Below, piece by piece: positions 2,943-41,900 of a DNA stretch of 55,399 bases. The stretch's first letter is position 1, and every line of letters begins with the position of its first letter. The stretch comes from Singulisphaera sp. GTDB taxonomy: Bacteria > Planctomycetota > Planctomycetia > Isosphaerales > Isosphaeraceae. Below the pieces are notes generated by a model. The model worked only from the letters and a program-made list of their open reading frames with translations, did not search any database and was not told the origin of the DNA. Both the position numbers and the translations under genes were made by a program. The stretch lies in contig DAIDJG010000119.1 in NCBI GenBank assembly GCA_027451445.1, positions 1 through 55,399 on the forward strand. The letters are read 5' to 3'.

Positions 2943-3527
2943 TCAATCCGTCTCGTCGTTCGCCGTGGCTTGGAACGAGTCCGAGCTCCAGACCCGTTGA
3001 TTGAAGCTCGCGGAGCCTCCGCGCGGAATTGTGATTTTGGTCCAGTGATCACCCGCAAGAATGCGTGCGATCATCACGATTTGACCGACATGGTATCCAC
3101 AGTGTGCCAACGAGCGCTGGATCGCAAGCGGCACCGAATGCGGCTCACCGCGGATGGTAATCGTCTTGACAAGGTCGGCTGAAGAGAGACCTGCCAGCGT
3201 GTCGAAGAGCTGTTGCCATCCGGCGTTCCAGTAGTTCGTCAGTTCGTCGCGGGTCGTGAAGGAGTCGACGAATTCCCCATCCCGATCGCGCCAGGGTTTC
3301 TCGCCGTCCGTCTCCAGGAAATCGGTCCAGCGCGACAACAGGTTCCCCGCAACATGCTTCATGATGACCGCGATGCTGTTGGTGTTGGCATCGAGGGCGA
3401 TGTGCAGCTTTTCGTCGGGAAGTTGAGCGACGGCCTTGTCCACCCATCCCTTGCTCGATCGTGACACGGTGAGAGCAGCGGCGACGAGCGTTGTTCCCAG
3501 GGTCTCAAATGTCGCTTGCTCGGACAT
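2943..3527 (-). CDS. DUF1572-like protein, DinB fold
   Basis: The 194-residue protein resembles the DUF1572 branch of the DinB/YfiT four-helix-bundle superfamily, whose members are often metal-dependent and thiol-linked transferases or of unknown role. Candidate metal ligands are the His in IMKHVAGNLLSRWTDFL and two His in RSLAHCGYHVGQIVMIAR, spaced as in DinB proteins. Length is near the family norm. The start at 3527 (MSEQATFETLG) is chosen because GGGGGA lies 8 bases upstream, although the frame is open to 3587. It has no signal peptide, so it is probably cytoplasmic. Specific substrate unknown. Confidence 0.78.
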   Translation of the reverse strand: MSEQATFETLGTTLVAAALTVSRSSKGWVDKAVAQLPDEKLHIALDANTNSIAVIMKHVAGNLLSRWTDFLETDGEKPWRDRDGEFVDSFTTRDELTNYWNAGWQQLFDTLAGLSSADLVKTITIRGEPHSVPLAIQRSLAHCGYHVGQIVMIARILAGDHWTKITIPRGGSASFNQRVWSSDSFQATANDETD

Positions 3528-3823
3528 CTTGGAATCCCCCCGGTCCGTCGTGTTTGGCTCGCGGGTGAGCGCGGACTCGCCATTCACGGCCTCCCACGAT
3601 TCCCCTCATCTTTAACATCGATCCCGGGGACTTTGCAAAACTGTGGTTTGCGCCCAAGAGGCGGATGCTATACTACGGCCGCGACAGGAACCACTTCTTC
3701 TCGATCCCGGACCGGATCAACTGCTTCACATCCTCGGCCGGCTCAGCACGATTGACCCGGTGGCATGCGTCACGAGTTTCTCAGGTCGTTGCCCGACTCC
3801 CCTCTGTTTCTCAGGACCATCTC

Positions 3824-4618
3824 ATGAAAACGAGGCGCTCACCGTTCGCGCCGACGCTTTCCGTCGCCGAAGGAATCCTTGAGACCCGTGTCGTGATGTC
3901 GGGGAGCACTCTTCATCATGGCGCCGCGGACGTTGCTGCGCAGGGGCGGACGGCGACGACGCTATCGGCCACCGCCGGCACGCTTGGCCAGCCGATCACC
4001 TTCAACGTGTCGGTTCGGGCCGCCGCCTCGGCAGGTTCGCCCACGGGGACGGTGAACCTTCTCGACCACGGACAGGTAATCGAAACGCTTACGCTGGCGC
4101 CCACGACCTCAACCAATCCCAACTTCGCAACCAGCGGCGCGTCGGTGACTTTGACACCGCAGGCCGGCGGCAGCGCGTATTACTTCGGCCGGCACGCGAT
4201 CACGGCCCAGTTCGTTCCCAGCGGATCCTTTTCGCAAAGCATCGGCAAATCGGTCTTCACCGTCAGCGAGCCCGGCTACACAACCCTGTCCGACGGGGTG
4301 CAGACTGCCACCATCGCCCCCGGATCGGGCCCGGGAATCCAGGCGGGACAGACCGCCAACATGCTCTACACCGGCTATCTCGCGAAAAACGGCCACATCT
4401 TCGACGACTCGGCCGAGCACGGTGGCACGCCCTTCAGTTTCACCGTCGGCGCAGGGCAAGTCATCCCCGGTTTCGATGCGGGAACCGTAGGGATGAAGGT
4501 GGGAGAGACACGGATCCTGCGGATCCCGCCCGCCGCAGGTTACGGCGGCACGGCAAACGGTCCCATCCCGGCGCATTCAACTCTCATCTTTGTGCTAACG
4601 CTGGAATCGATCTCGTGA
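3824..4618 (+). CDS. Exported FKBP-type peptidyl-prolyl isomerase
   Basis: The 264-residue protein catalyses cis-trans isomerisation at proline, probably outside the cytoplasm. The first 30 residues carry a planctomycete LEPR-like export motif (LSVAEGILETRVVMSG). Next comes an Ig-like repeat domain of about 100 residues (TATTLSATAGTLGQPITFNVSV, SPTGTVNLLDHGQ). The last ~105 residues are an FKBP domain: ANMLYTGYLAKNGHIFDDS, then FSFTVGAGQVIPGFDAG, GMKVGETRILRIPPAAGYG and STLIFVLTLESI. These are the usual FKBP active-site stretches. The ATG at 3824 gives MKTRRSPFAPTLS. The longer frame from 3665 adds an N-terminus without family features. Confidence 0.87.
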   Translation: MKTRRSPFAPTLSVAEGILETRVVMSGSTLHHGAADVAAQGRTATTLSATAGTLGQPITFNVSVRAAASAGSPTGTVNLLDHGQVIETLTLAPTTSTNPNFATSGASVTLTPQAGGSAYYFGRHAITAQFVPSGSFSQSIGKSVFTVSEPGYTTLSDGVQTATIAPGSGPGIQAGQTANMLYTGYLAKNGHIFDDSAEHGGTPFSFTVGAGQVIPGFDAGTVGMKVGETRILRIPPAAGYGGTANGPIPAHSTLIFVLTLESIS

Positions 4619-4640
4619 CGTGAGCTCGATTCTCGCCTCT

Positions 4641-4669
4641 CCCGAGCTGACTCGGCACGTCCGCTCGGG
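4641..4669 (+). terminator. Possible terminator hairpin after FKBP gene
   Basis: CCCGAGC at 4641-4647 pairs perfectly with GCTCGGG at 4663-4669 across a 15-base loop, 22 bases after the FKBP stop codon. No clear T-run follows, so its role as an intrinsic terminator is uncertain. Confidence 0.35.
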
Positions 4670-4850
4670 TGAATCCAACTCCTGAGAACGCGCTAGGATT
4701 CATTTTCCAATTTCATTCTCTTACGATAATCTTTAAATAGCGTTCACTAGATCACGTTGCTCGCGGGGGGCTCCGAAAGGTCGATCTTGCCCTTGTGTGG
4801 TTGGACGTTCTCCGCTAAGGTGAGTCCACCTATCCAATTCGTCCACTCGG

Positions 4851-5354
4851 GTGCTAGAGGCCCGCGCGAGCGTCGGGACATGTCGATTGACCGGCACGCC
4901 GTTGAATCGGACTCGCGTTGACGTTTCTCAAGATCGTCTTTCATGGTTGAGCCGCTGGGCCATGGCGCTATCGGCGCTGGGCATGGTGGCGGTGCTGGGC
5001 GTGGCTTGTTTGTTGCGGCCGGACCCACGGGGATTTGGGACGCACATACAGCTTGGCCTGGCGCCTTGTGCGTTCAAAACGGTGACGGGGAACCCTTGTC
5101 CGACCTGCGGCATGACGACGTCGTTCGCGTGGTTCGTGCGAGGCCGATTTGTCCGGTCCTGGTGTGCGAACCCGGCGGGAAGCTTGCTCGCCCCGACATG
5201 TCTCATGACGATCCCCTGGCTCGTGGCCGGGGCGATCCGCGGTAGGCCCGTGTGGTTTCGGTCGGTGGAAGGACCCGTAATCACCTTGGTCTCGAGTACC
5301 GTGGCCTTGAGCCTCTTTTTTTGGACCATTCGCCTTTTTCTGGGAGGGCGTTAA
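4851..5354 (+). CDS. DUF2752 membrane protein
   Basis: This protein of up to 167 residues carries the DUF2752 signature CPTCGMTTSFAWFVRG preceded by LGLAPCAFKTVTGNP. Hydrophobic segments lie before it (MALSALGMVAVLGVACLL) and after it (APTCLMTIPWLVAGAI; VITLVSSTVALSLFFWTI), so three membrane passes are likely. The biochemical role of the family is unknown. The start is uncertain: GTG at 4851 opens the frame, while an ATG at 4962 starts right at the first hydrophobic segment and gives a length closer to the family. The stop is one base before the next gene's ATG, so the two are probably co-transcribed. Confidence 0.72.
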   Translation: MLEARASVGTCRLTGTPLNRTRVDVSQDRLSWLSRWAMALSALGMVAVLGVACLLRPDPRGFGTHIQLGLAPCAFKTVTGNPCPTCGMTTSFAWFVRGRFVRSWCANPAGSLLAPTCLMTIPWLVAGAIRGRPVWFRSVEGPVITLVSSTVALSLFFWTIRLFLGGR

Positions 5355-5355
5355 G

Positions 5356-6084
5356 ATGACCCCTCGGCCGCTCGCACGGACGCGCCGCGCCGTTTGCTCG
5401 TTCGTCATCATCGGCGCAGGTCTGCTGGCGCTCGCCGGCTGCGATCCTCGTACACTTCTCTACTTCCTTCAACCCAACGAACCGATGATCCCCCCGCCTG
5501 AGGGGGCGCCTTCGCTCAAGGACAAGCGGGTCGTCATCCTGACCCACTCTTCGTCCGGCGCACAGGCTGACTTCATGTCGCTCGACCGCGACCTCGCCCG
5601 CGAGTTCGGTCATCGCCTCAAGAAAAAACTCGAAAAGAAAATCGACATCGTTCCCCAAAACAAAGTCTGGGACTGGGTCGAAGGCCATCCGAACTGGACC
5701 AATCCGGCAGAGCTGGCGCGGGCCTTCGAGGCGGACTTTGTGATCTTCCTGGAAATCGAGAAGTTCCAGACCAAGGACCCAGGCGACCTCAACGTCTTGC
5801 ACGGGACGGCCCGCACACACATTCAGGCCATCGAGATGGCCTATCCCAAGAACACTAAAGGGAAGGCGCTCACCGACAAGCCGAAGGAAGAGGAAACCGT
5901 CTACGACGAGTACGCCGACTGCGAGTTCCCCAAGCGTGGCCCGATCCCCACGGACGGGACCATCAGCTCGGGCGCCTTCAAGAAAACGTTCTTGAAGGTC
6001 GTGGCGACCGAAGCCACCTGGCACTTTGTCGAGCACTCGCCCGAAGACTCGATCGGTGGCGACACGAAGATCGACGAGCGTTGA
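5356..6084 (+). CDS. Conserved lipoprotein, function unknown
   Basis: The 242-residue product has a lipoprotein signal peptide: basic TRRAVC, hydrophobic core, and lipobox LALAGC with Cys29 as the acylation site. The mature part begins with a Pro-rich linker, followed by an alpha/beta-looking region (KDKRVVILTHSSSG; ADFVIFLEIEKFQ) and an acidic middle. It resembles planctomycete lipoproteins of unknown function that sit beside DUF2752 genes, but I cannot name a family. It begins one base after the DUF2752 stop codon, so translational coupling is likely. Confidence 0.72.
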   Translation: MTPRPLARTRRAVCSFVIIGAGLLALAGCDPRTLLYFLQPNEPMIPPPEGAPSLKDKRVVILTHSSSGAQADFMSLDRDLAREFGHRLKKKLEKKIDIVPQNKVWDWVEGHPNWTNPAELARAFEADFVIFLEIEKFQTKDPGDLNVLHGTARTHIQAIEMAYPKNTKGKALTDKPKEEETVYDEYADCEFPKRGPIPTDGTISSGAFKKTFLKVVATEATWHFVEHSPEDSIGGDTKIDER

Positions 6085-6118
6085 GAACGCGGTCGACCTG
6101 GAAGTTCGGACGTCACCC

Positions 6119-6167
6119 GGTGGGCGAGGAATCGCCCACCCTTTCGCGATTCGGCGTTTCGCGAAAG
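6119..6167. repeat. Twin REP-like hairpins
   Basis: Two adjacent palindromes lie in the gap of about 305 bases between the lipoprotein gene and the DUF4058-like gene. GGTGGGCGA (6119-6127) pairs with TCGCCCACC (6132-6140) over a 4-base loop. CTTTCGCG (6141-6148) pairs with CGCGAAAG (6160-6167). They could terminate the upstream transcript or be an intergenic REP-type repeat. Nothing else in the gap supports a gene. Confidence 0.6.
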
Positions 6168-6389
6168 CGCAGCCCTCATCGATGCTTCTTCGGCCCCCGA
6201 AGGCGGGATTGATCGTTGCGGTCGGGAGCGGTGTTCGCACGCTCGGCTGCTGGCCAGGGCGCGGTCGGCTCTGGAAGTGATCCGGCCGCGCGACGATTGC
6301 GACCCGCCTTGAAAATGTGATGTGGCGATCGCACCGCAGACAGTCGTAGAATGCAGACCGGGCCCGAGCTCCGGATGGGAGGCATTACG

Positions 6390-7139
6390 ATGCCAATTCA
6401 CGACTGGACCCGCGTTAATGCCGGGTTGTTTCACCACTTCCATCACAATTGGACCACCGCGCTCTCGATCGCTCTGAACAACGGTGGATTACCACCTGGA
6501 TATTTCGCCTTCGCCGAGCAGGTCGTGGGTGGTCCCATACCCAACATACTGACACTGCATCACACACCCTGCGCCTCCCCTCGATCCGTCACGAAGGGAG
6601 GCGTCGCCATCGCCACGTCCCCACCTTGCACGAAGTACGTGCAAAAAGCCAACCTTGATCCGTATGTAGCTAAAGCAAACCAAATTGTCATTCGCCACTC
6701 GCTTGGAAATGTCGTCGCGATCATCGAGATCGTCTCGCCAGGCAACAAGTCGAGCCGAGCGGCGCTAAACGCCCTTGTAGAAAAAGTCGTCACCTGCATA
6801 ACACAGGGCATTCACATGGTCGTAATCGATCTCTTTCCACCAACGCCCCGGGATCCCCATGGTTTGCACTGGGCCATCTGGGAGGAGCTCGGTGAGGAGC
6901 ATCTGGAACTGCCCGCGGATAAACCGCTTACCTTGGCATCCTATGCGGCGGGTCTCACTGTGGTCGCGTATGTAGAGGCAATCGCTGTGGGCGATGTCCT
7001 CTCGGACATGCCGCTGTTCCTCGAACCTGAAACGTACGTGCCAATACCGCTGGAAGCAACCTATCAATCGACTTGGTCCACGTCGCCCGCCCTCCTGAGG
7101 GACGTCGTGCTTGAAGCTCCCAAATTGGAACGCGGCTGA
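6390..7139 (+). CDS. DUF4058-like protein (MPIHDW type)
   Basis: The 249-residue protein begins MPIHDWTRVNAGLFHHFHHNW and continues with GGLPPGYFAFAEQVVGGPIPNILTL. This pattern recurs in planctomycete paralogues usually annotated DUF4058. A central segment reads VAIIEIVSPGNKSS, and a later one VVIDLFPPTPRDPHG. The alternating Asp/Glu-x-Val-Ser-Pro pattern recalls restriction-endonuclease-like folds (Uma2/DUF4058), but catalytic residues are not certain. I chose the ATG at 6390 because GGGAGG precedes it by 7 bases. The gene stands alone. Function unknown. Confidence 0.7.
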   Translation: MPIHDWTRVNAGLFHHFHHNWTTALSIALNNGGLPPGYFAFAEQVVGGPIPNILTLHHTPCASPRSVTKGGVAIATSPPCTKYVQKANLDPYVAKANQIVIRHSLGNVVAIIEIVSPGNKSSRAALNALVEKVVTCITQGIHMVVIDLFPPTPRDPHGLHWAIWEELGEEHLELPADKPLTLASYAAGLTVVAYVEAIAVGDVLSDMPLFLEPETYVPIPLEATYQSTWSTSPALLRDVVLEAPKLERG

Positions 7140-7336
7140 GAGAGTCGAGCCTCAAGTCGAAACACAATAACGACTTATATCCAATTGGCCGGCGTCGGAG
7201 GGGTGCGCCCTTTCTTTCGGGGTGCGGTTGGTCAACAATCCCTCAAGGCGCGGAGCGAAAGCATGGTAAGTTATTCGTGGCGAGTTCGTTAAATCTCTCT
7301 CGCGTAATCTTCCTCGACCTCTCTGATAAGATCGAC

Positions 7337-9898
7337 ATGCGTTCCAAGAAGCGAAAGCCCCGTTCGACAGCCTCGGAAACGCCAAGGCGTTCGATCCCTG
7401 ACCCCGTTGACGCGGCCGAAGAGACTACGGCCACGGGAAGGGCGCTGGTGCTCACCGAGCGCCCGGATACCGACTCGCCCTGGCCCGAGGAGTGGCCGCT
7501 GCTCCCGTTGCGTTCGGACGTCGTCTTTCCCCAGACGGTGGTCCCGCTGGTCGTCAACCGGGCCGGCGGCATCAAGCTCATCGACGAGGTCCTCGCGGGC
7601 GACAAGCTGATCGCCCTGATTAGCCAGAAGCACCCGGACACCGAAGAGCCGGGGCAGGCCGACCTGTATCCGACCCTGTGCGCGGGGTCCGTGCTTAAGA
7701 TGCTCAAGTTCCCCGACGGTTCGACACGGATCGTCTGTCAGGGGCTCTTCCGCGCTCGGCTCGTATCGGTCGTCAAGTCGGAGCCTTACCTGATTGGCCG
7801 GTTGGAGCCGCTGGACGACGTGGTCGAGGAGGGGGTCGAGCTCGACGCGCTGGTCCACCATGTGAACCGGCTGTTCCAGAAAATGGTCGACCAGAGTCAG
7901 CAGGTTCCCGAAGAGCTCCAGGTCGCGGCGATGAACACGCGTGAGCCCGGCCGGCTCGCGGACCTGCTCGGATCGAGCTTGCCGTTCACGATCGAGGAGA
8001 AGCAGAAGCTCCTCTCCGAGCCCAACGTGCGCGTGCGTCTGGAAAAGCTCGGGCAATTGCTCGCCCGACAGCTCGCCGTGCTAGAGCTCTCAAGCAAGAT
8101 CCAGGAACAGGTCGGCTCCGAGATCACCAAAGCCCAGCGCGACCACTTCCTGCGTCAGCAGATCAAGGCGATCCAGGAAGAGCTCGGCGAGGGGGAGGGG
8201 GAGAACCCCGAGCTCGACGAGCTTTGGAAGCGTTTGAAGAACGCCGAGCCGCCCGATGAGGTGCTGACCGAGGCCGAGCGCGAGATCGAACGGCTGGCCG
8301 GGATGCACCCGAGCTCGGCCGAGTACTCGATCGTTCGCACCTATCTCGATTGGTTGGCCGTCCTGCCGTGGTCGAAGTCCAGTCGCGATCGGCTCGATCT
8401 GCGTCGAGCGCGCAAGGTCCTCGACGCTGACCACTACGACCTGGAGAAGATCAAGGAACGGATCCTCGAATACCTCGCCGTGCGCAAGCTGAAGAAGGAC
8501 ATGAAGGGGCCGATCCTCTGCTTCGCCGGTCCTCCGGGGACGGGGAAGACCTCGCTGGGCAAGAGCATCGCCAAGGCGTTGGGCCGCGAGTTCGTGCGGA
8601 TCAGCCTGGGAGGTGTGCACGACGAGGCCGAGATCCGAGGGCACCGCCGCACCTACGTCGCCGCGATGCCGGGCCGGATCGTCCAGGGCATTCGCAAGGC
8701 GGCCACCAATAATCCTGTGTTCATGCTCGACGAAGTCGACAAGCTCGGCGCCGACTTTCGGGGTGATCCCGCGGCGGCGCTGCTCGAAGTGCTCGACCCC
8801 GAGCAGAACTCGACGTTCCGTGACCATTACCTCGACGTCGACTTCGACCTGTCGAAGGTCATGTTCATCGCCACGGCGAACATGCTCGAGACGATCCCCT
8901 CGCCGTTGCTCGACCGGATGGAGGTGCTCCAGCTCCCCGGTTACAGCGAGGAGGAGAAGACGCTGATCGCCCAGCGCTACATCATCCCGAAGCAGCTCGA
9001 TGCGCATGGGCTGTCGGTCGAGAGTGTGACGTTCAGCGACGACGGCGTGCGGAAGATCATCGCTGACTACACGAGGGAAGCGGGCTTGCGGAATCTCGAA
9101 CGCGAGATCGCTTCAATCTGCCGCAAGATCGCCCGCAGGCACGCCGAAGGAAACAAGGCCAAGAACGCGGTGGGAACGGCGGAGGTCGCGCGTGCGCTCG
9201 GTCCGCCCCGGTTTTTCCGCGAGGTGGCTGACCGCACCGGCACGCCGGGCGTCGCGACGGGCCTAGCGTGGACTCCGACTGGTGGCGAGATCCTCTTCAT
9301 CGAAGCGACCCGCATGCCGGGGAAGGGGGGGCTGACGCTCACCGGTCTGCTCGGTGAGTCGATGCGCGAGAGTGCCCACGCGGCGATGAGCTACTTGCGA
9401 AGCAACGCACAGACGCTGGGTATCGATACGGCGATGCTCCGCAGGCACGACATTCACATTCACGTACCCGCGGGCGCTGTCCCCAAAGATGGTCCGTCGG
9501 CCGGCGTCGCGATCGCCGCCGCATTGATGAGCCTTTTCCGGGAGACGGCGATCCATCAGAACCTCGCGATGACTGGCGAGGTCACGCTCACCGGCCGCGT
9601 ATTGCCCGTTGGCGGAGTGCGCGAAAAGGTCCTCGCCGCGCGCAGGGCAGGGATCCTCACGGTGCTCATTCCTCGTCATAACGAGAAGGACCTTATCGAG
9701 CTCCCAGCCGAAGTGAAGGCCGATATGACCTTCGAGCCGGTCGACACGCTCGATGACGTTGTGCCCTACCTTTTCCCCACGAAAACGCCGCGTGCCAAGA
9801 AAGCGAAGGCCGAACCCAAGCGGGGCAAGGTTCCCAAGAAGACCCGGATTCTCCCAGCACCCGAGAACAAGCCGGCTCGGCGGCGGCCCTCAGTATGA
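7337..9898 (+). CDS. lon: ATP-dependent Lon protease
   Basis: The 853-residue cytoplasmic AAA+ serine protease degrades misfolded and regulatory proteins. Domains in order: substrate-binding LON N-domain ([21 protein letters not shown] onward, about residues 50-260); helical region; AAA+ module with Walker [10 protein letters not shown] near residue 398 and Walker [15 protein letters not shown]-terminal protease domain. The catalytic dyad is Ser721 in [12 protein letters not shown] and Lys764 in [12 protein letters not shown]. The 43-residue spacing equals that of E. coli Lon (S679/K722). The first ~45 and last ~40 residues are extra, the latter very basic ([19 protein letters not shown]). 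The ATG at 7337 is preferred; GTG at 7277 would add 20 residues. The stop codon overlaps a dispersed repeat. Confidence 0.97.
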
Positions 9899-9954
9899 GA
9901 GTCTGTTTTGGAAGTTGAGCGGAGCTGGAAAAGGGGGACTGGCTCCGAGTCTTC
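9897..9954 (-). repeat. Dispersed repeat, copy 2
   Basis: This is the inverted copy of the element at 121-178. It begins within the lon stop codon (TGA at 9896-9898). It contains one arm of the first hairpin described for 9926-10046, so the two structures are nested or belong to one composite element. Confidence 0.65.
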
Positions 9955-10046
9955 GAGGTGCCTGTCCCCCTTTTCCAGCGGAGCGGGCGTGGAAATGGGG
10001 ACGGGCACCGTCCGAAGACGGCCGGAGCCAGTCCCCATTTCCACGC
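9926..10046. repeat. Two long hairpins between lon and the sugar ABC ATPase gene
   Basis: TGGAAAAGGGGGAC (9926-9939) pairs perfectly with its complement at 9964-9977. A second perfect 16-bp pair, GCGTGGAAATGGGGAC (9987-10002), matches its complement at 10031-10046. The inner bases share GGACTGGCTCCG and GGTGCC/GGCACC motifs, so the two hairpins look like variants of one palindromic family in tandem. They may also end the lon transcript. Confidence 0.7.
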
Positions 10047-10104
10047 TTTCGGGACTCTGGGGGCCTGCGCCGAGGCCCTCAGTGCGGAGGGGAACCGTTC
10101 GGTC

Positions 10105-11610
10105 ATGACCGTGTCCGAGCCCGCCGTCGATTCGCCAGGACCTGCGCGCGTGTTGCTGCGCGGGATCGTGAAGACCTATCCGGGAGTGCGGGCGCTGCGG
10201 GATGTCGATCTCGACGTGCGGCCCGGAGAGATCCACGCGCTCTGTGGAGAGAACGGGGCGGGGAAGAGCACCTTGATCCAGGTGCTCGGCGGCGCCGTGA
10301 GACCGGATTCGGGTGAAATCCTCCTCGACGGGGTCGCCGCTCGGTTTCACGACCCTGCCGACGCTCTGGCGCAAGGCGTCGCGGTGATCCACCAGGAGTT
10401 CAGCCTCGTTGGTCCCTTGACCGTCGCGGAGAACCTCGCGCTGGGGAACGAGCCGCGGGTCGGTCCGTGGATTAACCGCCGCGAAATTCGCCGGATGGGT
10501 GCCGATCGGCTCCGTGCGCTCGACTTCCCCGTCGATCCGGACGCGCGGGCGGAAGCGCTCACGACTGGCCAGAGACAACTCGTCGAGATCGCCAAGGCCC
10601 TCGGCCGCAAGGCCCGGGTGCTTGTGCTCGACGAGCCCACGGCGGCCCTCACCCGTACCGAGGCCGAGCACCTATTCCAGGTCCTGCGTGACTTGAGATC
10701 CCACGGACTTGGAATCATCTACATCTCGCACCATCTCGAAGAAGTCTCAGCACTCGCGGATCGCATCTCCGTGCTGCGCGACGGAATGAAGGTGGGCACG
10801 TGGCCGGCCTCGGAGTTGTCGCACGACCGCCTGGTCGCCGCCATGGTGGGCTCTGCCGTGGACCTGCGCGCGACGGCCCCTCGCCATCCGTCCGGACCTC
10901 CTTTGCTGCGTGTTGTTGGTGCCACCGGGTCAACGCTTCGAGGCGTGGACCTCGAGGTGCGAGCCGGAGAGGTCGTCGGGCTGACCGGCCTGGCTGGATC
11001 CGGTCACGAAGAACTCGCCCGCGCCCTCTTCGGCGCGACGCGACTGCGCTCGGGCCAGATCGAGTGGCGAGGACGGTCCTTTCGGCCGCGCCATCCTCTC
11101 CACGCCCGCCGGCTCGGCATCGCGTCCGTCCCCGCCGACCGCCGCCGCGAGGGCCTGATTTCCACCTGGGACGTCGCCGAAAACCTCTCCCTCGCAATCC
11201 TCCCGAAATTCAGCCGCCTCGGGTGGCTGAATCGCCGGGCACGAAACCGAGAGGCGAGCGAGTGGTGCGACACATTCGAAGTCACCAGTGCGGGCCTGGG
11301 CCAACGCGCACTCACGCTTTCTGGCGGCAACCAGCAAAAAGTGCTCCTCGCCCGCTGGGCGGCGACTGCCCCGGAGCTTTTCATCCTCAACGATCCAACC
11401 CGCGGCATCGACGTCAAGACCCGCGAAGCGATCCACCGCCAGATCGAAGACTGGGCCGAGCAGGGCCGTGGAATCCTTCTGGTAACATCCGATACCGAGG
11501 AACTGCAACGACTGGCCGATCGCATCGTGGTCCTCCGAGCGGGAAGAATCCTCAGCGAGCCAAACAGCGGAAGAGATCGATCCGCAGATGTCGCCGATGA
11601 ACGCAGATGA
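10105..11610 (+). CDS. Sugar ABC transporter ATPase, RbsA/MglA type
   Basis: The 501-residue ATPase has two fused ABC domains and would energise import of a sugar or similar solute. The first domain is complete: Walker A GENGAGKST (near residue 50), Q-loop HQEFSL, signature TTGQRQLVEIAKAL and Walker B VLVLDEPTAAL. The second has a degenerate Walker A (GLAGSGHEELARALFG) and keeps LSGGNQQKVLLARW and LNDPTRGIDV, as is usual for this family. The ATG at 10105 follows a GGAGGGG. The last ~14 codons (from SGRDRSADVADERR) are read from one arm of a 40-bp inverted repeat, so the natural C-terminus has been replaced. The permease gene follows 275 bases later. No binding-protein gene is in the window. 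Confidence 0.92.
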   Translation: MTVSEPAVDSPGPARVLLRGIVKTYPGVRALRDVDLDVRPGEIHALCGENGAGKSTLIQVLGGAVRPDSGEILLDGVAARFHDPADALAQGVAVIHQEFSLVGPLTVAENLALGNEPRVGPWINRREIRRMGADRLRALDFPVDPDARAEALTTGQRQLVEIAKALGRKARVLVLDEPTAALTRTEAEHLFQVLRDLRSHGLGIIYISHHLEEVSALADRISVLRDGMKVGTWPASELSHDRLVAAMVGSAVDLRATAPRHPSGPPLLRVVGATGSTLRGVDLEVRAGEVVGLTGLAGSGHEELARALFGATRLRSGQIEWRGRSFRPRHPLHARRLGIASVPADRRREGLISTWDVAENLSLAILPKFSRLGWLNRRARNREASEWCDTFEVTSAGLGQRALTLSGGNQQKVLLARWAATAPELFILNDPTRGIDVKTREAIHRQIEDWAEQGRGILLVTSDTEELQRLADRIVVLRAGRILSEPNSGRDRSADVADERR

Positions 11611-11866
11611 ATCCTGAAGAACCTCAGTTCGGTTCAGTCGACCTTGAGAACGTCCTGTGGCCTGAATAGCAAATGCAAAATGACAGATGGTAAATGCAAA
11701 ATGGCAAATGCCGGACGAGTGGCGAGAGCCTATTCCTCGGCGAGCGCAATATCGCGTTGGGCACCAACCGACATCTTGCATCTGCCATTTGACATCTTGC
11801 ATCTGCCATTTCGTTAGGAATTCTTAATCTGCGTTCATCGGCGACATCTGCGGATCGATCTCTTCC
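11569..11866. repeat. Repeat element with 40-bp perfect inverted ends
   Basis: Positions 11569-11608 are repeated exactly in inverted orientation at 11827-11866 (40 of 40 bases, including CCGCAGATGTCGCCGATGAA). Between the arms lie short tandem copies: AAATGCAAAATG occurs twice on the left, and ACATCTTGCATCTGCCATTT occurs at 11771-11790 and again at 11792-11811. The left arm overwrites the 3' end of the ABC ATPase gene. The right arm ends 19 bases before the permease ATG. It has no open frame of note, so it looks like a MITE-like non-autonomous element rather than an IS. Confidence 0.8.
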
Positions 11867-11885
11867 TATTTCAGGAAACTGTCGT

Positions 11886-12833
11886 ATGAAAGAGCATCTC
11901 CGTACCGTCTTACTCCGGTTGCCACAGTTTCTCCTGATGATCGGCGGACTGATCTTGATGTGGCGGACGGAGCGTTTCTTCACGTTTCATACGCTAGGAA
12001 GCATTCTCGAGCTGGCGAGCATCGTCGGAGTCCTGGCGGCCGGACAGACGTTCGTGCTGATCGGTGGAGGGTTCGACCTGTCTCAGGGCGCGATCGTGGC
12101 GCTGACGGCGGCCTCGACGGCATGGCTTGCGAAAGACTACACCGGCCCGATTCCAGCGGCGCTCGTGGGCCTTGGTCTGGGCGCGATGCTCGGCGCGATC
12201 AACGGCTTCTTCGTGGCCGTCGTTCGTACGAATGCTTTCGTGACCACGTTGAGCACACTCCTGATCTACCGAGGCGCAGCGTTCGTGCTTCTGGGAGGGC
12301 AGCCGATTTCCCAGGTCATGGCGTTTGCTCGGTTGAGCGCCGGGATCACGCTAGGTCGAACGGTTCTGGCGTTCCGCGCCTTCGTCTTCCTGGGCGCCGC
12401 GTTGCTCGCCTGGCTCGTCCTGCGACAGACCGTGTTCGGTCAATATGTTTACGCGGTGGGGGGCAACGCCGAGGCCGCGCGTTTGGCCGGAGTGCGGACC
12501 GTCCGCGTGCGCGTGGCGACATTCGCCCTGAGCGGGCTCGCGGCAGGGCTGGCCGCGATCCTCTGGCTTTCCTGGGTCCGCGTCGCGAAGCCTGATACCG
12601 GAACGAACCTCGAGCTCGACTCGATCGCCGCCTGCGTGGTCGGAGGTGTTTCACTCCAGGGGGGCGCGGGGAGCGTGCTTGGTGCAGCGGCGGGATGCTT
12701 GTTGCTGCAATCGCTCGCGACGATGATCACGACAGCCGGGCTACCGGACGAGTACCGCACGCTCGTTGCCGGCTCCGTGATCCTCACGTTCGCCGCGGCG
12801 GATGCGCTGGCACGTCGGGGAGAGCGTCGTTAA
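11886..12833 (+). CDS. Sugar ABC transporter permease, RbsC type
   Basis: The 315-residue inner-membrane permease would form the translocation channel for the adjacent RbsA-type ATPase. It shows eight or nine hydrophobic segments and family stretches GQTFVLIGGGFDLSQGAIVALTA, AINGFFVAVVRTNAFVTTLSTL, YAVGGNAEAARLAGVRT and ACVVGGVSLQGGAGSVLGAAAG. The last two are typical of BPD_transp_2 permeases of the ribose/galactose class. The 275-base gap before it is filled by a repeat element, so whether the pair is still co-transcribed is open. The gene converges with the aldo/keto reductase gene, 19 bases away. Substrate unknown. Confidence 0.92.
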   Translation: MKEHLRTVLLRLPQFLLMIGGLILMWRTERFFTFHTLGSILELASIVGVLAAGQTFVLIGGGFDLSQGAIVALTAASTAWLAKDYTGPIPAALVGLGLGAMLGAINGFFVAVVRTNAFVTTLSTLLIYRGAAFVLLGGQPISQVMAFARLSAGITLGRTVLAFRAFVFLGAALLAWLVLRQTVFGQYVYAVGGNAEAARLAGVRTVRVRVATFALSGLAAGLAAILWLSWVRVAKPDTGTNLELDSIAACVVGGVSLQGGAGSVLGAAAGCLLLQSLATMITTAGLPDEYRTLVAGSVILTFAAADALARRGERR

Positions 12834-12852
12834 TCCTTCGCGACGACTCCGG

Positions 12853-14064
12853 TCATCCGAGCAACCGGTCGACTTCCGGCAGGATCTTGGCGAAGTCGAG
12901 TTTATTGTGGCAGGCCTCGCGGGCGGCGGCGAGGTCAGCCCCCAACCAATCACGCTCCTCGGCAGCCAACTCCAAGTAGCATTCGCGGGCGTGGCTGCGG
13001 ATCCCATGGTCTTCGTGATAGGTGTAGAAACGAGCGAGGTCACCGAGCTTCGCCTTGGTGCCGGCGGCCACGGCGCAGCGGCCGTCGCAGTTCGGGCACA
13101 TCGTCGGGCCGGCGGCCAGCAGCGCGTCGCGGAGTTCGTTCAGCTCCGAAAGCTTGAGCGGCTCGAAACGGCGGGCGGCGTCGGCGTTCTCGCGCGTCTG
13201 GTCCTGGTTTCGCATCGTCACGCACGAAGCGGAAAAACGCTCGTCGGTCCAGATCGCGTGAAGGAGCCCCTGCGCTGGCGTCAGGTTTTTCTCTTGCAGC
13301 GAGGGCACGCGCGCCTGCGTGATCTTGAGCGCCTGGCCGGCGATCTGCTTCATCGACACGAGGCCAATGTTCGCCTTGTGGCAGGCGTCGAGCGCCTTGT
13401 TCAGCGCGGAGTCCTTCTCGAGCCAGGGGCTGAACCTGAGCATGATCACATCAATGAATCCGCCCTTTGCCGCGTTCTGGAGCTGCTCGGCGATCGATGG
13501 GTCGTGGGTCGAGAAGCCGACGAACTTCACCTTGCCCGTCTTCTTGATCGCCTCGATGGCGTCCTTCATTTCCTTGCTCTTGGGCCAGTCCTTCTGGTTC
13601 GTGCTGAGCCCGTGGAAAAAGAGCAGGTCGATATAGTCGGTGCCCAGACGTTCGAGACGCTTGTCGACCTTATCGAGCATCTCTTCCGGCCGGTTCACAT
13701 GGTGCTTGGTGGCGAGGAAAATCGTCTTGCGCACTTCAGGCTGAGCTTCAAACCAGGCCTTGAAGACGGTCTCGGCGTTTCGGTAGCTTTCCGCCGTGTC
13801 GAAGTAGCGCACACCCTCGCGGTAAGCAAAGCGCAGCAGACGATCCAGCGCGGCGGGCTCGCCGACGGTTCCCTGATTGAGCAACGTTACTTCGACGCCA
13901 GTCTTGCCCAGCATGCGCCTGGGCAGTACCGGCTTGCCTTCACCCGGCTTCGCGTCGCCCGCCGCGTCTTGCGCCCGGACAACACCGGCTGCCAGTCCCG
14001 CCGCCGTCGCCGCGACCCCCGCGTGCAGGAAACCGCGACGATCCATCGAACCCGATTCCGACAT
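12853..14064 (-). CDS. Tat-exported aldo/keto reductase
   Basis: The 403-residue NAD(P)H-dependent oxidoreductase starts with a twin-arginine signal (MDRRGFLHAGVAATAAGLAAG, RR at residues 9-10, cleavage probably after VRAQD). The barrel keeps the catalytic set: Asp and Tyr in YFDTAESY, Lys in LATKHHVN and His in LLFFHGL. The C-terminal ~80 residues hold MCPNCDGRC, a Cys cluster that in related proteins belongs to an iron-sulfur region, though only three Cys are close together here. The start at 14064 is supported by GGGGAGGA upstream; the frame is open to 14217. It lies downstream of a P450 gene on the same strand, with a 169-base gap. Substrate unknown. Confidence 0.9.
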   Translation of the reverse strand: MSESGSMDRRGFLHAGVAATAAGLAAGVVRAQDAAGDAKPGEGKPVLPRRMLGKTGVEVTLLNQGTVGEPAALDRLLRFAYREGVRYFDTAESYRNAETVFKAWFEAQPEVRKTIFLATKHHVNRPEEMLDKVDKRLERLGTDYIDLLFFHGLSTNQKDWPKSKEMKDAIEAIKKTGKVKFVGFSTHDPSIAEQLQNAAKGGFIDVIMLRFSPWLEKDSALNKALDACHKANIGLVSMKQIAGQALKITQARVPSLQEKNLTPAQGLLHAIWTDERFSASCVTMRNQDQTRENADAARRFEPLKLSELNELRDALLAAGPTMCPNCDGRCAVAAGTKAKLGDLARFYTYHEDHGIRSHARECYLELAAEERDWLGADLAAAREACHNKLDFAKILPEVDRLLG

Positions 14065-14233
14065 CCCTCGATCCTCCCCGAAAGTGATGACGATCGAACG
14101 AAACCGCGTCTCCGCTCCCCGGCTCGGGTGCGCTGATCGTATCCGACACGGCACAAGGGACGCCAGTGCGGTAGTGGGAGCGCGGTTTCCCTTTGCTGAA
14201 AAAGCGTCGCCAAGCACAGAACCGGCCGCGCGA

Positions 14234-15592
14234 TCAGCGCCTCCGCCGCTCGAGCACGACGAGCACGCCCTTGTCCGGCCGAAGTGTCATCGTCGGCAAG
14301 GGCGTAACCACCGCGCCCGGAACGAGCTTCAACCGGTATTGCTGGGCGATCGTGGCGAGCAAGAGCACCGACTCCATCTGGGCGAATTGGTTGCCGATGC
14401 AGATCCTCGGCCCGCCTCCGAACGGGAAGTACGCATAACGCGGCAGGCGCTTGGCGAGCCCATCGGCCCAGCGTTCGGGGCGGAAGGCTGCGGGCTCGTC
14501 GAAGTAGCGAGGGTCGCGGTGCAGAACCCACTGGCTCATGAACACGGTCACACCTACCGGCACGTCGTATCCGCCGATCGTGGCCGGCTCGATGGCCTCA
14601 CGGCCCAGCAACCAGACCGTGGGGTAATAGCGCAGGGTCTCGGTCACCACCATGTCGGCCCAGGTCAAGCGCGGGAGGTCGTCGAACGTCGGCGCGCGTC
14701 CGCCGAGCACGTCGTCGAGTTCGGCGTGCAGCTTTGCTTCGGCTTCCGGGTGCTGGGCGAGCAGGTACCAGACCCACGCCAGGGTATTCGCCGTGGTCTC
14801 GTGACCGGCCATGAAGAGGGTCATCGTCTCATCGCGAAGCTGACGGTCGGTCATCTGGCCGCCGTCATCGTCGTCCTGGGCCTGAAGGAGCATCGAGAGC
14901 AGGTCGCCCCGGTCCTCACCGCTCGCCCTGCGCTCGGCGATGATGCGGAAGATGATCGCGTTGAGCCGATCGACGGCCCGGCGGAGCCGCAGGTTGACCG
15001 GAGTCGGGAACCATTCGGGCAAGCGCAGGAGCGTGTTCACCCGTGCGGTGAAGCAACATAGCGTCGTCTCCATCGCCGCACTGGCGTCGGCCGAGTCGCC
15101 GGAGACGTCGGCGTCGAAGAGGCACTTGGCGACGATCTCCAGGGTGAGCCGCATCATGTCTTCCTGGGCGTCGCGGGTCTGGCCGTCGGCCCAGGTTTGA
15201 AGCATCCGTTCGGTGAATTCGACCATCGTGTTCGCATGCGCCGCGATGCGCTCGCGGTGGAACGCGGGCTGCGCCAGCTTGCGCTGCCGGCGCCAGAAGT
15301 CGCTCTCGCTCGTCAGCAAGCCCTGGCCCAGCGTGGATCTCGTCAGGCGGAGCGCGAAGTGCTTGATGAAGCTTCGGTTGTGTGTAACGAGCACCTCTTC
15401 CACGAGGTCGGGGTGATTCACGATCATTGCACGGCGCGGGCCGAGCCGGATCGACACGCAGTCGCCGAACTCGCGCGCGCAACGATCGAAGAACTCGAGC
15501 CGACCGCGGCGGAATTCCGGCAGGTTGCCGGTAAGCCAGTTCCCTTTGGGCCCCGGCGGAGACATCCGTGCCGGTTCCACCACCGTCGTCAT
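14234..15592 (-). CDS. Cytochrome P450
   Basis: The 452-residue haem monooxygenase would insert oxygen into an organic substrate using partner redox proteins, which are not seen nearby. Diagnostic motifs: I-helix AGHETT (near residue 260), K-helix ETLR (near 316), the FRPERW region and the haem loop FPFGGGPRICIGNQFA with the Cys ligand near residue 397. The N-terminus (PPGPKGNWLTGNLPEF) lacks a membrane anchor, so the enzyme is probably soluble. The helix I and haem-loop pattern resembles the CYP102/CYP4-like branch. Its ATG is 3 bases from the stop codon of a truncated esterase frame. Confidence 0.95.
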   Translation of the reverse strand: MTTVVEPARMSPPGPKGNWLTGNLPEFRRGRLEFFDRCAREFGDCVSIRLGPRRAMIVNHPDLVEEVLVTHNRSFIKHFALRLTRSTLGQGLLTSESDFWRRQRKLAQPAFHRERIAAHANTMVEFTERMLQTWADGQTRDAQEDMMRLTLEIVAKCLFDADVSGDSADASAAMETTLCCFTARVNTLLRLPEWFPTPVNLRLRRAVDRLNAIIFRIIAERRASGEDRGDLLSMLLQAQDDDDGGQMTDRQLRDETMTLFMAGHETTANTLAWVWYLLAQHPEAEAKLHAELDDVLGGRAPTFDDLPRLTWADMVVTETLRYYPTVWLLGREAIEPATIGGYDVPVGVTVFMSQWVLHRDPRYFDEPAAFRPERWADGLAKRLPRYAYFPFGGGPRICIGNQFAQMESVLLLATIAQQYRLKLVPGAVVTPLPTMTLRPDKGVLVVLERRRR

Positions 15593-26129: not shown

Positions 26130-35968
<9,839 letters not shown>

Positions 35969-35980
35969 ATCGAGGTGTCG

Positions 35981-38900
35981 ATGAGCACGCTTTCGAAGCC
36001 TGTGGCCGAGCTGTCGGCGGATGAGAAGCGGGCGATGCTCGCCCAACTGCTGCGGAAGAAGGCGGGCGGGGCCAGGTCGTTCCCGCTCTCATTTGGCCAG
36101 CAGCGGCTCTGGTTTCTCGACCAGATGGTCCCCGGCCTGGCCGCATACAACGTACCCCTGGCCGCGCGGTTTTCCGGGCAGCTCGATATCGACGCCTTCG
36201 CCGCAAGCTTGAACGCCCTCGTCCGCCGGCACGACGTCCTGCGAACCACATTCATGGCCGGCCCCGACGGCGTGCCGGTGCAGGTCGTCTCGCCAGCGCT
36301 GAATCTGGAAATGCCGGTCAGTTCCGTACGCGATGATGACGAGGTCCGGAGACTGGCGACGGTCGAAGCCCAGCAACCGTTTGACCTGAAGCGCGGGCCG
36401 CTCATCCGCGCACGCTTGCTGCGGCTCAGCGAACTCGAGCATGTGTTACTCCTCACATTGCACCACATCGTCGCTGACGGCTGGTCGCTCGGCGTCCTGC
36501 TCACCGATCTGATGGCCTTCTACGAGGCGAAGACGACGGCGAGTCGGGCCGTGCCAACCGACTTGCCAATCCAGTACGGCGATTTCGCGGTATGGCAGCG
36601 CCAGTCGCTCCAGGGCGATTCTCTCGACCGTCAGCTCGCATACTGGAAACAACGGCTGGCCGGCGCGACGGCAACGCTCGACCTGCCGACCGACCACCCG
36701 AGACCCGCCGTGCAGACGTTCCGCGGCGCGCTCTGCCCGTTTGAGCTGACACCCGGACTCGTGAGCGCGGTGCGCGCTCTGTCGAAACGGGAAGGCTGCA
36801 CGCCCTTCATGATCTTGCTGGCGGCGTTCGAGGCGGTGTTACACCGCTACACCGGCCAGGACGACCTCTGTGTCGGCACCCCCATCGCCGGCCGCAACCG
36901 GGCCGAGACGGAGGGGCTGGTCGGCTTCTTCGTGAACACGCTGGTGCTGCGCGGTGACTTATCGGGTGATCCCTCTTTCAGCGCGCTCCTGGCCCGCGTG
37001 CGCGAGGATTGCCTGGGCGCTTACGCACACCAGGAACTGCCGTTTGAACGATTGGTGGAGGAGCTTCGTCCCGAGCGCGATCTGAGCCGCTCAGCTCTCT
37101 TCCAGGTGTTGTTTGTCTACCAGAATGCGCCCCTGCCGAAGTTGGAGTTTGGCAATCTGAAAGTCAGCTCCTGGGACGTCGACAGCGGAACATCCAAGTT
37201 TGATTTGTCGCTTTTCATCGTCGAACAAAACGAGGGCTTGCGCGGGACGCTGGAGTACAGCACCGAGCTGTTCGAGCCGGCAACCGCCGCGCGCCTGGTC
37301 GGGCATCTTTGTACGTTGCTCGAGGCCGCGGCGACGGATCCGCACCAGCGGCTCTCCGACCTGCCGATGCTCACCAGCGCCGAGCATCGAGAACTCAATC
37401 GATGGAACGAAACTCAGGTAAACTATGCACAAGAGTACGTACTCAACGCTCTTTTCGAGCAGCAAGCCCGCCGCACTCCGGACGCCGAGGCGGTGCGGTA
37501 CGAGGGGCAAGTTTTGAGCTACCGCGAACTGGATCATCGCGCCCAGCATCTCGCCGCGGTGCTCCAGCAGCTTGGCGTCGGCCCTGATACGCCCGTCGCC
37601 GTCGCCATGGAACGTTCGCTCGAACTCGTCGTGGCTCTCCTCGGCATCCTCAAGGCCGGCGGCGCCTACGTGCCGCTCGATCCCGATTATCCTCGCGATC
37701 GCCTCGACTTCATGCTCCACGACGCGGGCACGGATGTCCTGATCACACAGTCCCATCTGCGGGAGCAATTGCCCAGCCACCAAGGCGAGGTTCTCTGCCT
37801 CGACACAGGCTGGGGTGCGACGCGCGAACAAGCCTTCAATGGATCTCCCGGTGCAGGCTGGACTGAGGCTCCTCGTGATTCTGTCGCGTTCCCTTCCCCG
37901 TGCGCAACGGAGACTCTTGCTCTCTCCCCCCCTGTGGGGGAGGGCTGGGGTGGGGGGATCGCGTCGCCCTTGGCCGTTCGAACCCCCCACCCTAACCCTC
38001 CCCCACAAGGGGGGAGGGAAACAGAGGCCCGCGCAACCGGCGCTACAAAACCCTTTACGTCTCCTACTCTCAACCCCGAGCACCTGGCCTACGTCATCTA
38101 CACCTCTGGCTCAACGGGACGACCCAAAGGCGCTCAGAACTCGCACCGCGCTATCTGCAATCGTCTCTTGTGGATGCAGGACGCATACCGCCTTACGCCC
38201 AACGATACCGTTCTTCAGAAAACCCCCTACAGCTTCGACGTCTCCGTCTGGGAGTTCTTCTGGCCCCTCATCACCGGCGCTCGCCTCGTCCTCGCTCGGC
38301 CCGGAGGCCACAAGGACCCCGGCTACCTCGCCGACCTCATCGAAGCGGAACACGTCAGCGTCTGCCACTTCGTCCCCTCCATGCTCGAAGCCTTTCTCAC
38401 CGAGTCCACACTCGACCGCCGCTGTGCCAGCCTGCGCGATGTCATGTGCAGCGGCGAGGCACTGAGCTATGAGCTGCAAGAGCGGTTCTTCGAACGGGTC
38501 GGTGCGCGGCTGCACAACCTGTACGGTCCGACCGAGGCGGCAGTCGATGTGACGTACTGGGAATGCCGGCGCAACGACACGAGGCGCGTGGTGCCGATTG
38601 GTCGTCCGATCGCCAACATCCACATGCACGTGCTTGACGGCGCAGGCCGCGAGACGCCCGTGGGCGTGCCGGGTGAACTGCACATTGGTGGCGTGGGCCT
38701 GGCGCGGGGCTATCACAACCGTCCGGAGCTGACGGCGGAGAAGTTCGTTCACCATGGCCAACTCGGCCGGCTCTACCGGACGGGAGACCTGGGTCGTTGG
38801 CTTGCGGACGGATCGCTGGAGTACCTCGGTCGCCTGGACCACCAGGTGAAGCTACGGGGATTCCGAGTGGAACTGGGCGAGATCGAGGCGGTGCTGTGCG

Positions 38901-41900
38901 AGCAGCCTGGGGTGCGTGCGTCGGTCGTGTTGGCGCGTGAGGATGTGCCGGGAGACAAGCGGCTCGTCGCCTATGTCGTGCCTGATGCGAACGCACCGAC
39001 AGAGACCTCGGACGGGCGTACCGAGCAGATTGCCCAGTGGCAGGCTGTCTGGGAGGACACATACAGTCAAAACGCGGCGAACGGGGACGCGACCTTCAAC
39101 ACGATTGGCTGGAACAGCAGTTACACCGGTCTCCCCTTCTCGGCCGAGGAGATGCGCGAGTGGCTCGATACGACCGTCGCGCGTATCCTCGCGCTCCGGC
39201 CGACGCGCGTGCTCGAGATCGGCTGCGGGACGGGTCTGATCCTTTTCCAGGTCGCTCCTCACTGCGAGCGCTATGTGGGGCTCGACTTTTCTGAAAAGAC
39301 GCTCTGCCGCCTCCAGGAACACGTCACACGGTCTGGCCTGGATCACGTTGACCTTTTACGGCGCGCGGCTCACGAGATCGACGATCTGGACGGCTTCGAC
39401 ACGGTCATCATCAATTCCGTGACGCAGTACTTTCCCGGGATTCACTACTTCGTGCGCGTGCTCGAATGCGCGGCCCAGGCACTCGGGAGCGGCGGCCGGA
39501 TCTTCCTCGGCGACCTGCGCAACGTACGCCTGCTCGACGCATTCCACGCCTCGGTTCAGCTTCAGCGTGCCCCCGCGTCGCTCGCGAGGGAACAGGTTCG
39601 CGCACGAGCACGGGCCAACGCCGCGCACGAGCGAGAGCTCCTGATCGACCCCGCGTTGTTCGAGGCACTGCGAGGCTACATCCCCTCCATCGATCGCGTG
39701 GAGATCCAGCTCAAGACCGGGCGACAGCATAACGAGCTGACGCGCTTCCGCTATGACGCCGTCTTGCACGTGAACGAAACGGCCGGCGATGACGGGCATG
39801 TCGCCATCATGGATTGGCAAGCGCAAACACGGACCGTCGACGACGTCCGCCGGTTGCTTCAGGAGGAGCCGGCTCTCTGCGTGCGACGAGTGCCCAATGC
39901 ACGTCTCACCAACGAAATGATGACCCTCGATCTTCTCTCCGCGCCGGACGGCCCGGCAACGGCCGACGACCTGCGCGCAGCGCTTCGGGACGTTGACACC
40001 GAGGGATGGGATCCGGATGAATTTCGGGCGCTCGGCCGCGAACTGGGTCTTGATGTGGAGGTCCGCTGGTCGGAGAGCGGTGGCGATGGATGTTTCGACG
40101 TGGATTTCCGTCGGACCTTGGACACACGCTGCGGGCGGGGTGTTACGCATCGTCCACCGTGCGCAGAGCGCGCTCTTCCTCCCTCCCCCCTTGTGGGGGA
40201 GGGCCGGGGTGGGGGGATCGCGTCACCGGTGGCCGTTCGAACCCCCCACCCTAGCCCTCCCCCACAAGGGGGGAGGGAACAAGAGGCTGGGGGAATCGGT
40301 CTGCATTCCAGCAGCGCATCTGGCGGGAAGTATCTTTCGGACAAGCGATCCGAAGACTGGTCCAGCTTCGCGAACGATCCACTCTGCGGCAAGACCGCAC
40401 GTGACCTCGTTCCCCGGCTCCGCGAGATCCTCAAAGCGCGTTTGCCGGAATATATGGTTCCGTCCGCGTATGTCGTCGTCGAGAATCTGCCGCTGTCTCC
40501 CAACGGCAAGGTCGACCGCAAGGTGTTGCCCGCACCCGAGCAGTCCCGGCCCGAGCTGGGCGAGTCGTACGTTGCGCCTCGCACTCCGATCGAGCAAAGC
40601 CTGGCCGACCTCTGGGCGGGCGTGCTAGGTGTCGAACGCGTGGGGGTGAACGACAACTTCTTCGAGCTCGGGGGCCATTCGCTACTGGCGACCCAGGTCA
40701 TTTCCCGGTTACGCAAGCTCCTTCAGGTCGAGCTTCCGCTCCGCGTCTTCTTTGAGGCCCCCACGGTCGCCGCTTTGGCCGAACGGGTGGAAGCGGAGCG
40801 CCAGGCGGCGCTCGGATTGCCCGCCGCGCCGCTCCGGCCAGTGGCGCGTGACGGCGAGCTGCCACTGTCGTTTGGACAGGAAACGTTCTGGTTCCTCGAC
40901 CAGCTCGAGCCCGGTAGCCCCGTCTTCAACATCGACGTCGCCGTCCGGCTGCGCGGACCACTCAACGTTTCCGCGGTCGAGCAAGCGATCAACGAGGTAG
41001 TACGTCGACACGAAACGTTGCGAACCACGTTTCATGCGGTCGACGGCCGGCCAGTCGCCGAGGTCGCTGCATTTTCACCGATCTCCGTTCCGGTCACGGA
41101 CCTCGCCGGCTTGCCGGACGCCCTCGCGGAGGCCCGGAAGCTGGCCGAGGAGGAATCGCGACGACCATTCGACCTCGAGCGCGGGCCGCTGTTCCGCGTG
41201 CGGCTCTTGCGCATCGCGCCCGAGGACCACGCCGGCCTCTTGACCGTTCATCACTCGGTGTTCGACGGCTGGTCGCTCGGCGTCTTTCTGCGCGAGGTCG
41301 GGCTGCTGTACCAGGCGGCCTGCGCCGGTACGACCACTCGCTTGCCCGCGCTTGATATTCAGTACGCTGACTACGCGCACTGGCAGCGACAGTGGCTCGA
41401 GAGCGGTTTGATGGCCGATCAACTCACCTACTGGAAGACGCAGTTGGCCGGCCCACTCCCCATCCTCGAGCTTCCGACCGATCGGCCGAGGCCTGCGGCT
41501 CGCTCGTTCCGAGGCGCCCGGCGCATGGCCATCATTCCGAGCCCGCTGACCGAAGCGGTGCAAGCCCTGGCCCGTCGCGAGGGCTGCACGCTCTACATGG
41601 TGCTGCTTGCCGCATTCAAGGCGCTGCTGGCGCGTTACAGCGGACAGTTGGACCTTTGCGTCGGAACCCCCATCGCCGGTCGCAACCGGGCCGAGACGGA
41701 AGGCCTGATCGGCTTCTTCGTCAATACGCTCGTGCTCCGCACCGACCTGTCCGGCAACCCATCCTTCCGCGAGCTGCTGCACCGTGTGCGCGAGGTGGCT
41801 CTCGAAGCCTACGCGCACCAGGAACTCCCCTTCGAGATGCTCGTCCAGACGCTGAGACCTGAGCGCGACCTGAGCCATTCGGCACTGTTCCAGGTTATGT

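Follow-up and report, generated by a model that had tools for sequence, protein, structure and literature searches.

The window analyzed here, the whole stretch of 55,399 nucleotides of Singulisphaera sp. DNA (GenBank assembly GCA_027451445.1, contig DAIDJG010000119.1, positions 1 to 55,399), carries an operon for an RbsA-type ABC transporter in which the ATPase and permease genes are held apart by a long inverted repeat. This locus raises the questions of what kind of element the repeat is, which enzyme, if any, serves it, and what it has done to the genes on either side. The original prediction took it for a single MITE-like element that had rewritten the end of the ATPase gene.

Nested hairpins at the end of an rbsA gene

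The inverted ends are perfect over 40 nt, as had been described, and can be extended to 43 nt with 98% complementarity (11569-11611 and 11824-11866); the sole mismatch, GATGAA versus GATTAA, lies outside the identical outer 40 nt. The RNA fold predicted for positions 11560-11880 has an energy of −158.2 kcal/mol (z score of −11.8), and none of 100 shuffled sequences was equally stable. There is no gene inside, in line with the prediction: the ORF listing for the element consists only of overlapping, unsupported frames. No promoter-like or terminator-like sites were found across 11400-12000, and no known Rfam RNA matched the window at the gathering score. A single MITE could be ruled out at this position, where the sequence falls into two separate repeat families of the genome. 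Two elements are nested here, with an inner hairpin sitting in the loop of an outer one (Table 1). The tandem repeats reported for the interior are present, with a unit that is not 20 bases long; they are 21-mers made up of three 7-bp units each (81% at 11666-11707 and 100% at 11770-11811).

Table 1. Features of the transporter operon and its nested hairpins (window coordinates)
Feature	Position	Strand	Remarks
RbsA-type ABC transporter ATPase ORF	9958..11610	+	PF00005 in two stretches; start codon uncertain
Outer hairpin element, gene-less, GxxExxY-linked word family	11569..11866		Copies in own genome; arms shared with the PF13366 locus
Left arm, 40 nt	11569..11608	+	Words CGCAGAT 11583-11589, CGCCGAT 11592-11598, CGCAGAT 11602-11608
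Inner hairpin, arms of 7-bp tandem units (RRATGNN)	11661..11822	+	Conserved center without ORF; right end near TTAGGAATT; boundaries accurate to about 5 nt
Inner element, left repeat array	11666..11721	+	Tandem repeat family D1
Inner element, right repeat array	11770..11811	+	Tandem repeat family D2; two identical 21-mers
Right arm, 40-nt identity	11827..11866	-	Words 11827-11833, 11837-11843, 11846-11852, with the same CGCCGAT variant
Permease gene, same operon	11886..12833	+	PF02653; start 275 bp after ATPase stop

The left arm supplies the last 13 codons of the ATPase gene, GRDRSADVADERR, followed by the stop codon at 11608-11610, so that the predicted number of about 14 holds with the stop included. 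Alignments of this ATPase to its best orthologs in 45 genomes of the family reach only residue 482-488 (approximately nt 11571), and the C termini of the orthologs extend roughly 15 to 35 residues beyond the end of homology. A permease could be identified for 11 orthologs, and in 10 of these it starts between −23 and +43 from the ATPase stop, versus +275 here. Because homology to the orthologs ceases where the arm begins and their gene spacing is tight, the element must have replaced the gene end and opened the operon, both of which had been proposed; judging by these alignments, the native C terminus of the ATPase is lost. In the 11th ortholog (L099, from genome G032 of another genus), a 248-nt gap holds a different, G-rich hairpin unrelated to the outer element, so that this ATPase-permease junction has been hit twice.

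A search of the 10.9-Mb genome (622 contigs) with positions 11560-11880 returned 88 local matches that split into two sets, one for the outer arms and one for the inner block. An identical site in relatives combined with a lack of further copies, which would have spoken against a mobile element, was looked for and not found. The inner block of ∼160 bp recurs apart from the outer arms; 20 copies, that of the window included, align along their length. Similar repeats flank the PF05635/TIGR02436 four-helix-bundle (23S-IVP) genes of relatives, scoring at least 17 at 12 of 20 loci and at none of 120 random positions, and the unit at one of these loci (L185) nearly equals that of the inner element, the closest wording found. 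The inner element thus resembles the repeats around four-helix-bundle genes, a family present in 18 of the 45 genomes of the order sample. Since its own genome contains no match to PF05635, this tie is weaker than the tie of the outer element to the GxxExxY genes described below. The 23S-IVP four-helix-bundle genes located outside rRNA (loci L170-L189) have flanking inverted arrays of 7-bp units, and the unit is often specific to the locus.

The outer arms form a multicopy family of their own. When arms up to 700 bp apart were paired, 25 outer elements were collected, around short AT-rich loops, each arm consisting of three 7-mers of the CGCAGAT type, with variants, placed 9 to 10 nt apart. 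Outer and inner elements are nested a second time on contig C310 (276 bp). In a 310-bp outer element on contig C603, the loop is occupied by a third repeat family (the AGACTCGGAGCCAGTCCCC type), which is also seen in the window at 123-177, 9898-9952, and 9987-10046 and in locus L112 at 10165-10474. Five outer elements are clustered within 12 kb in locus L111 (positions 3454-14883; contig C362 of the same genome, G000).

The outer elements are located predominantly at gene 3′ ends: for 20 of the 25, the end of an ORF of at least 200 codons lies no more than 40 nt away, compared to 32 of 500 random positions. The arms (54% GC) are 95% identical between elements, and the loops (28% GC) of the 19 simple elements are nonhomologous, with a median score of 14 against 13 for shuffled sequences; the exceptions are two similar pairs, one of which (elements 12 and 23) is also alike in the flanks. 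Within elements, the two arms show 19 symmetric double changes, against a mean of 9.8 when arms were re-dealt, and only 1 of 2,000 shuffles gave as many. Private changes are thus shared between the two arms of an element more often than between re-dealt arms, so that either complementarity is maintained or one arm serves as the template for the other.

GxxExxY genes and their flanking words

A 445-bp outer element on contig C94 encloses an intact GxxExxY family gene (TIGR04256, PDDEXK_3, PF13366). The 10.9 Mb of this genome contain no further PF13366 match, and no second gene, a transposase included, was found between outer arms paired at up to 700 bp. The name GxxExxY occurs in parts of PMC8934634 and PMC12085832, and PF13366, TIGR04256, and PDDEXK_3 are named in a part of PMC9756366. 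The family is known as one of uncharacterized proteins with a nuclease fold; its link to repeats is an addition of the current analysis, and a full-text search of openly available papers, preprints excluded, revealed none that connect GxxExxY, PF13366, or TIGR04256 to repeats.

The structure predicted for the GxxExxY protein (pLDDT of 96.4) has a restriction nuclease-like fold, with SSO0001 as the nearest solved chain (Foldseek E value of 4e-4, VIA Z score of 9.2). The putative catalytic residues Asp61, Glu71, and Lys73 are conserved in 158, 157, and 158, respectively, of the 158 stop-free proteins. Several possible relationships were tried and rejected. The Holliday junction resolvase Hjc, at a VIA Z score of 6.4, perhaps shares merely a common arrangement; T7 endonuclease I provided the only sequence matches to solved structures, and these were not significant (E values of 0.21 and 0.25). 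In searches for a phage origin, none of 50,697 phage records matched and PHROG matches were only weak (best E value, 0.022), and no PADLOC defense family matched up to an E value of 1.

PF13366 genes were found in 29 of the 45 genomes of the order sample, which all belong to a single family. Inverted repeats scoring at least 17 within 300 nt on both sides accompany 23 of the 30 fetched loci (a count that includes three misplaced truncated minus-strand loci, L072, L074, and L080, which are correctly placed in the word count that follows), compared to 2 of 180 random positions. In named genomes of many phyla, 60 of 80 GxxExxY loci carry an inverted repeat with a score of at least 13, and none of 400 random positions does. 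Words of the arm type are present in both flanks of 138 of 163 GxxExxY loci, compared to 3 of 489 random placements; 25 loci are without them. These 163 loci represent 162 genes, as L196 and L078 are one gene counted from two collections, and the count omits the partial gene matches L088 and L089 and the repeated genes at L312, L316, L321, L326, and L327. The word pattern was fixed after inspection of the first 108 loci, and 46 of the remaining 55, unseen loci were labeled with it. The same pattern was found at 1 of 20 four-helix-bundle loci and 0 of 15 DUF559 loci. Among plasmid-borne GxxExxY relatives, only 3 of 8 have word-like arms at a score of at least 16. In Sphingomonas parapaucimobilis (NZ_CP155749.1, locus L337), a GxxExxY gene with word-like arms lies between fabD and fabG, another insertion into an operon.

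The words vary among GxxExxY loci, with CACAGAG, CGCCAAG, CGCGAAA, CACGAAT, and others represented. The 80 closest named-genome relatives of the protein encoded on C94 come from Planctomycetes, Verrucomicrobia, Acidobacteria, Chloroflexi, Proteobacteria, Bacteroidetes, Spirochaetes, Nitrospinae, and other phyla; their genes are flanked by CRCAGAT in 70 cases and by CRCGGAT in 1, with no word in 9. Relatives of the CACAGAG-associated protein (30 loci) have CRCAGAG (12), CRCGGAG (7), CRCAAAG (4), or no word (7), and those of the CGCCAAG-associated protein (25 loci, 2 without a word) have mixed words, the majority of which end in AG. On a tree of 138 proteins, built from 116 columns and with many unresolved forks, letter 7 of the word changes 5 times, against 37 to 56 times in 300 shuffles, and the 7-mer word class changes 28 times, against 55 to 66; letters 4 and 5 track the tree weakly (26 changes; shuffles, 31 to 34). 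With the genome-contigs set removed (67 rows), letter 7 still changes 5 times (shuffles, 8 to 11). The word class is common to 91% of protein pairs at 60 to 70% identity and to 5% of those at 40 to 50%. By these comparisons, the word follows the GxxExxY protein, not the host, and the two are coinherited across phyla.

This association suggests that the outer element, itself without a gene, is probably a hairpin substrate on which a GxxExxY nuclease that reads the words acts in trans, by analogy to a REPIN and its RAYT but with an unrelated enzyme. The general form of the words is C(A/G)CnnAn; with three 7-bp words per arm at a spacing of 8 to 10 bp, about one helical turn, an arm pair would present a nuclease with six putative binding sites, phased and inverted. 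The nuclease would bind these words, probably as a hairpin or cruciform, cut, and then spread or rewrite the arms in trans, as RAYTs are thought to do on REPINs. Binding, cutting, and mobilization are what we infer from the sequence patterns. One such event would have placed the arms in the 3′ end of rbsA, replacing the last residues and separating the permease gene, and a second hairpin of 7-bp units, of the type seen around four-helix-bundle (23S-IVP) genes, would have later entered the loop of the outer element.

The same sites in a sister species

In the genome of another species of the same genus (G009), 12 of the 25 sites could be compared (elements 1, 2, 4, 5, 6, 7, 8, 10, 11, 12, 13, and 16); one of the flank searches covered elements 6 to 22 (17 of 25), the last flank being 13 nt short. 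None of the 12 sites has the same word in G009. Arms with a different word are found at 6 sites (elements 1, 2, 4, 8, 12, and 13, of which those at sites 12 and 13 were missed by the strict element detector), another G-rich hairpin is found at the site of element 5, and 5 sites (6, 7, 10, 11, and 16) are without any element. The site of element 6 is nearly empty in G009, with 17 bp between the aligned flanks instead of 184 bp; the flanks at the comparable sites are too diverged for target site duplications to be read.

A near-empty site would also be expected of an ordinary MITE, as would the short length, terminal inverted repeats, and multiple copies. The outer element could then be an internal-deletion derivative of a DDE or HUH transposon, with GxxExxY as a mere passenger. 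This origin appears quite unlikely, however: the interiors are unshared, GxxExxY is the only gene between such arms in the genome (pairs of up to 700 bp), and the arms track the GxxExxY phylogeny over phyla. The five sites without any element in the sister genome weigh against another explanation, namely, that these are hairpins useful to the host, terminators or mRNA-stabilizing stems at gene 3′ ends that the nuclease processes or regulates, with mobility being rare or past. The strong predicted fold, the covariation of the arms, and the 20 of 25 elements at gene 3′ ends would fit such a role. However, there is no terminator-like site at 11400-12000, the element at 11569-11866 lies inside an operon and has replaced codons, and a generic terminator would have no need for words that covary with nuclease families over phyla; this role is rather improbable as the main explanation.

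At one of the sites with different words, both genomes carry GxxExxY genes. Their proteins are 67% identical, no closer than those from other phyla (up to 69%), which suggests separate arrivals of the two genes at one spot. This pair, the different words at 6 of the 12 comparable sites, and the uniform arms around unrelated loops would all agree with the arms being the target of the nuclease and not its vehicle: the nuclease would be a selfish cutter, with the words marking self and the arms being converted in place to the word of the resident nuclease. Over 25 intervals, hairpins are present in both genomes in 10 cases, in G000 only in 5, in G009 only in 1, and in neither in 9 (Fisher test, 0.007, for a small sample with classes judged by eye and the interval of element 8 added by hand), a co-occurrence above expectation. 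However, a few permissive gene ends could yield equal sharing of sites, and it is rather unlikely that the arms are such targets.

Against the favored reading, a hairpin served in trans by the nuclease, stand the 25 of 163 GxxExxY loci without words and the low share of plasmid-borne relatives with word-like arms (3 of 8). The combination of 95% identical arms with unrelated loops argues against plain copying of whole units, unless the loops decay fast, and so do the different-word elements at 6 of 12 sites in the sister species. A stranger process, in which arms are written or converted in place, may therefore be at work; it would account both for arms that hardly differ while their AT-rich loops have nothing in common and for the exchange of words where a sister species has an element at the corresponding site.

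Comparison with other hairpins and known systems

G-rich hairpins of another family are located at 31206-31314, 37911-38026, 40173-40288, and 48039-48147 of the window, in frame inside giant NRPS-like ORFs that stay open for 3,288 and 4,639 codons, to which they add peptides of the type PSPLVGEGWGGG..TPHPNPPPQGG. They are reminiscent of the Rickettsia palindromic elements. A perfect palindrome with 27-nt arms and a 3-nt loop (42691-42747) is likewise in frame within an NRPS-like ORF. Hairpins of the NRPS-type G-rich kind also occur in the flanks of DUF559 (PF04480) genes (e.g., L366, L338, L339, and L347-L349), with scores of at least 17 at 10 of 15 loci, a count taken from 15 of 30 fetched loci and without a null of its own; PF04480 has 5 matches in the Singulisphaera genome. 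DUF559 and the G-rich hairpin are possibly a second nuclease-hairpin system. A broader and decidedly tentative generalization is that GxxExxY nucleases could be the engines of an unrecognized, phylum-spanning class of hairpins, each lineage reading its own 7-bp word, with arms, instead of whole elements, being written or converted at the 3′ ends of genes, and that DUF559 nucleases and four-helix-bundle proteins might be parallel engines of the other hairpin classes in the window.

The intervening sequences of 23S rRNA, such as the Coxiella IVS, are described in a part of PMC4990558 as hairpins that end in inverted repeats and carry an S23/four-helix-bundle ORF in the loop. The inner element is similar to them in repeat style; in contrast, it has no ORF and is seated in the loop of a hairpin within an operon and not in rRNA.

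The outer family shares with MITEs its short length, lack of genes, terminal inverted repeats, and many copies, and to this extent the original description as MITE-like is apt. It is not a strict MITE because the interiors of its 19 simple elements are unshared and no transposase partner was found between arms of up to 700 bp apart; moreover, it is one of two nested elements, and the gene that goes with its arms encodes a PD-(D/E)XK nuclease and not a recognized transposase.

In REPIN/RAYT (TnpA-REP) systems, as outlined in a part of PMC3116915, gene-less multicopy elements have short conserved inverted ends, the gene for the enzyme exists in few copies with matching ends nearby, and the enzyme covaries with the ends. 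The outer family resembles these systems in having an inverted doublet of short conserved ends with a loop, a dedicated enzyme, and covariation of the two. In contrast to RAYTs, this enzyme is of the PD-(D/E)XK type and not of the HUH/Y1 type, each arm has three phased 7-mers, and the nuclease gene lies inside its own pair of arms; as the one gene found between the arms (pairs of up to 700 bp) does not encode an HUH enzyme, the family should not be filed as REPINs. If served as proposed, the outer elements would provide a DNA target and a role open to testing for a nuclease family that is very widespread but uncharacterized, and would explain a kind of short inverted repeat that is common in genomes of environmental bacteria. 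Given the link between word and protein, recognition can be tested directly by pairing proteins with matching or nonmatching words, and REPIN/RAYT gains a counterpart for comparison that relies on an unrelated enzyme.
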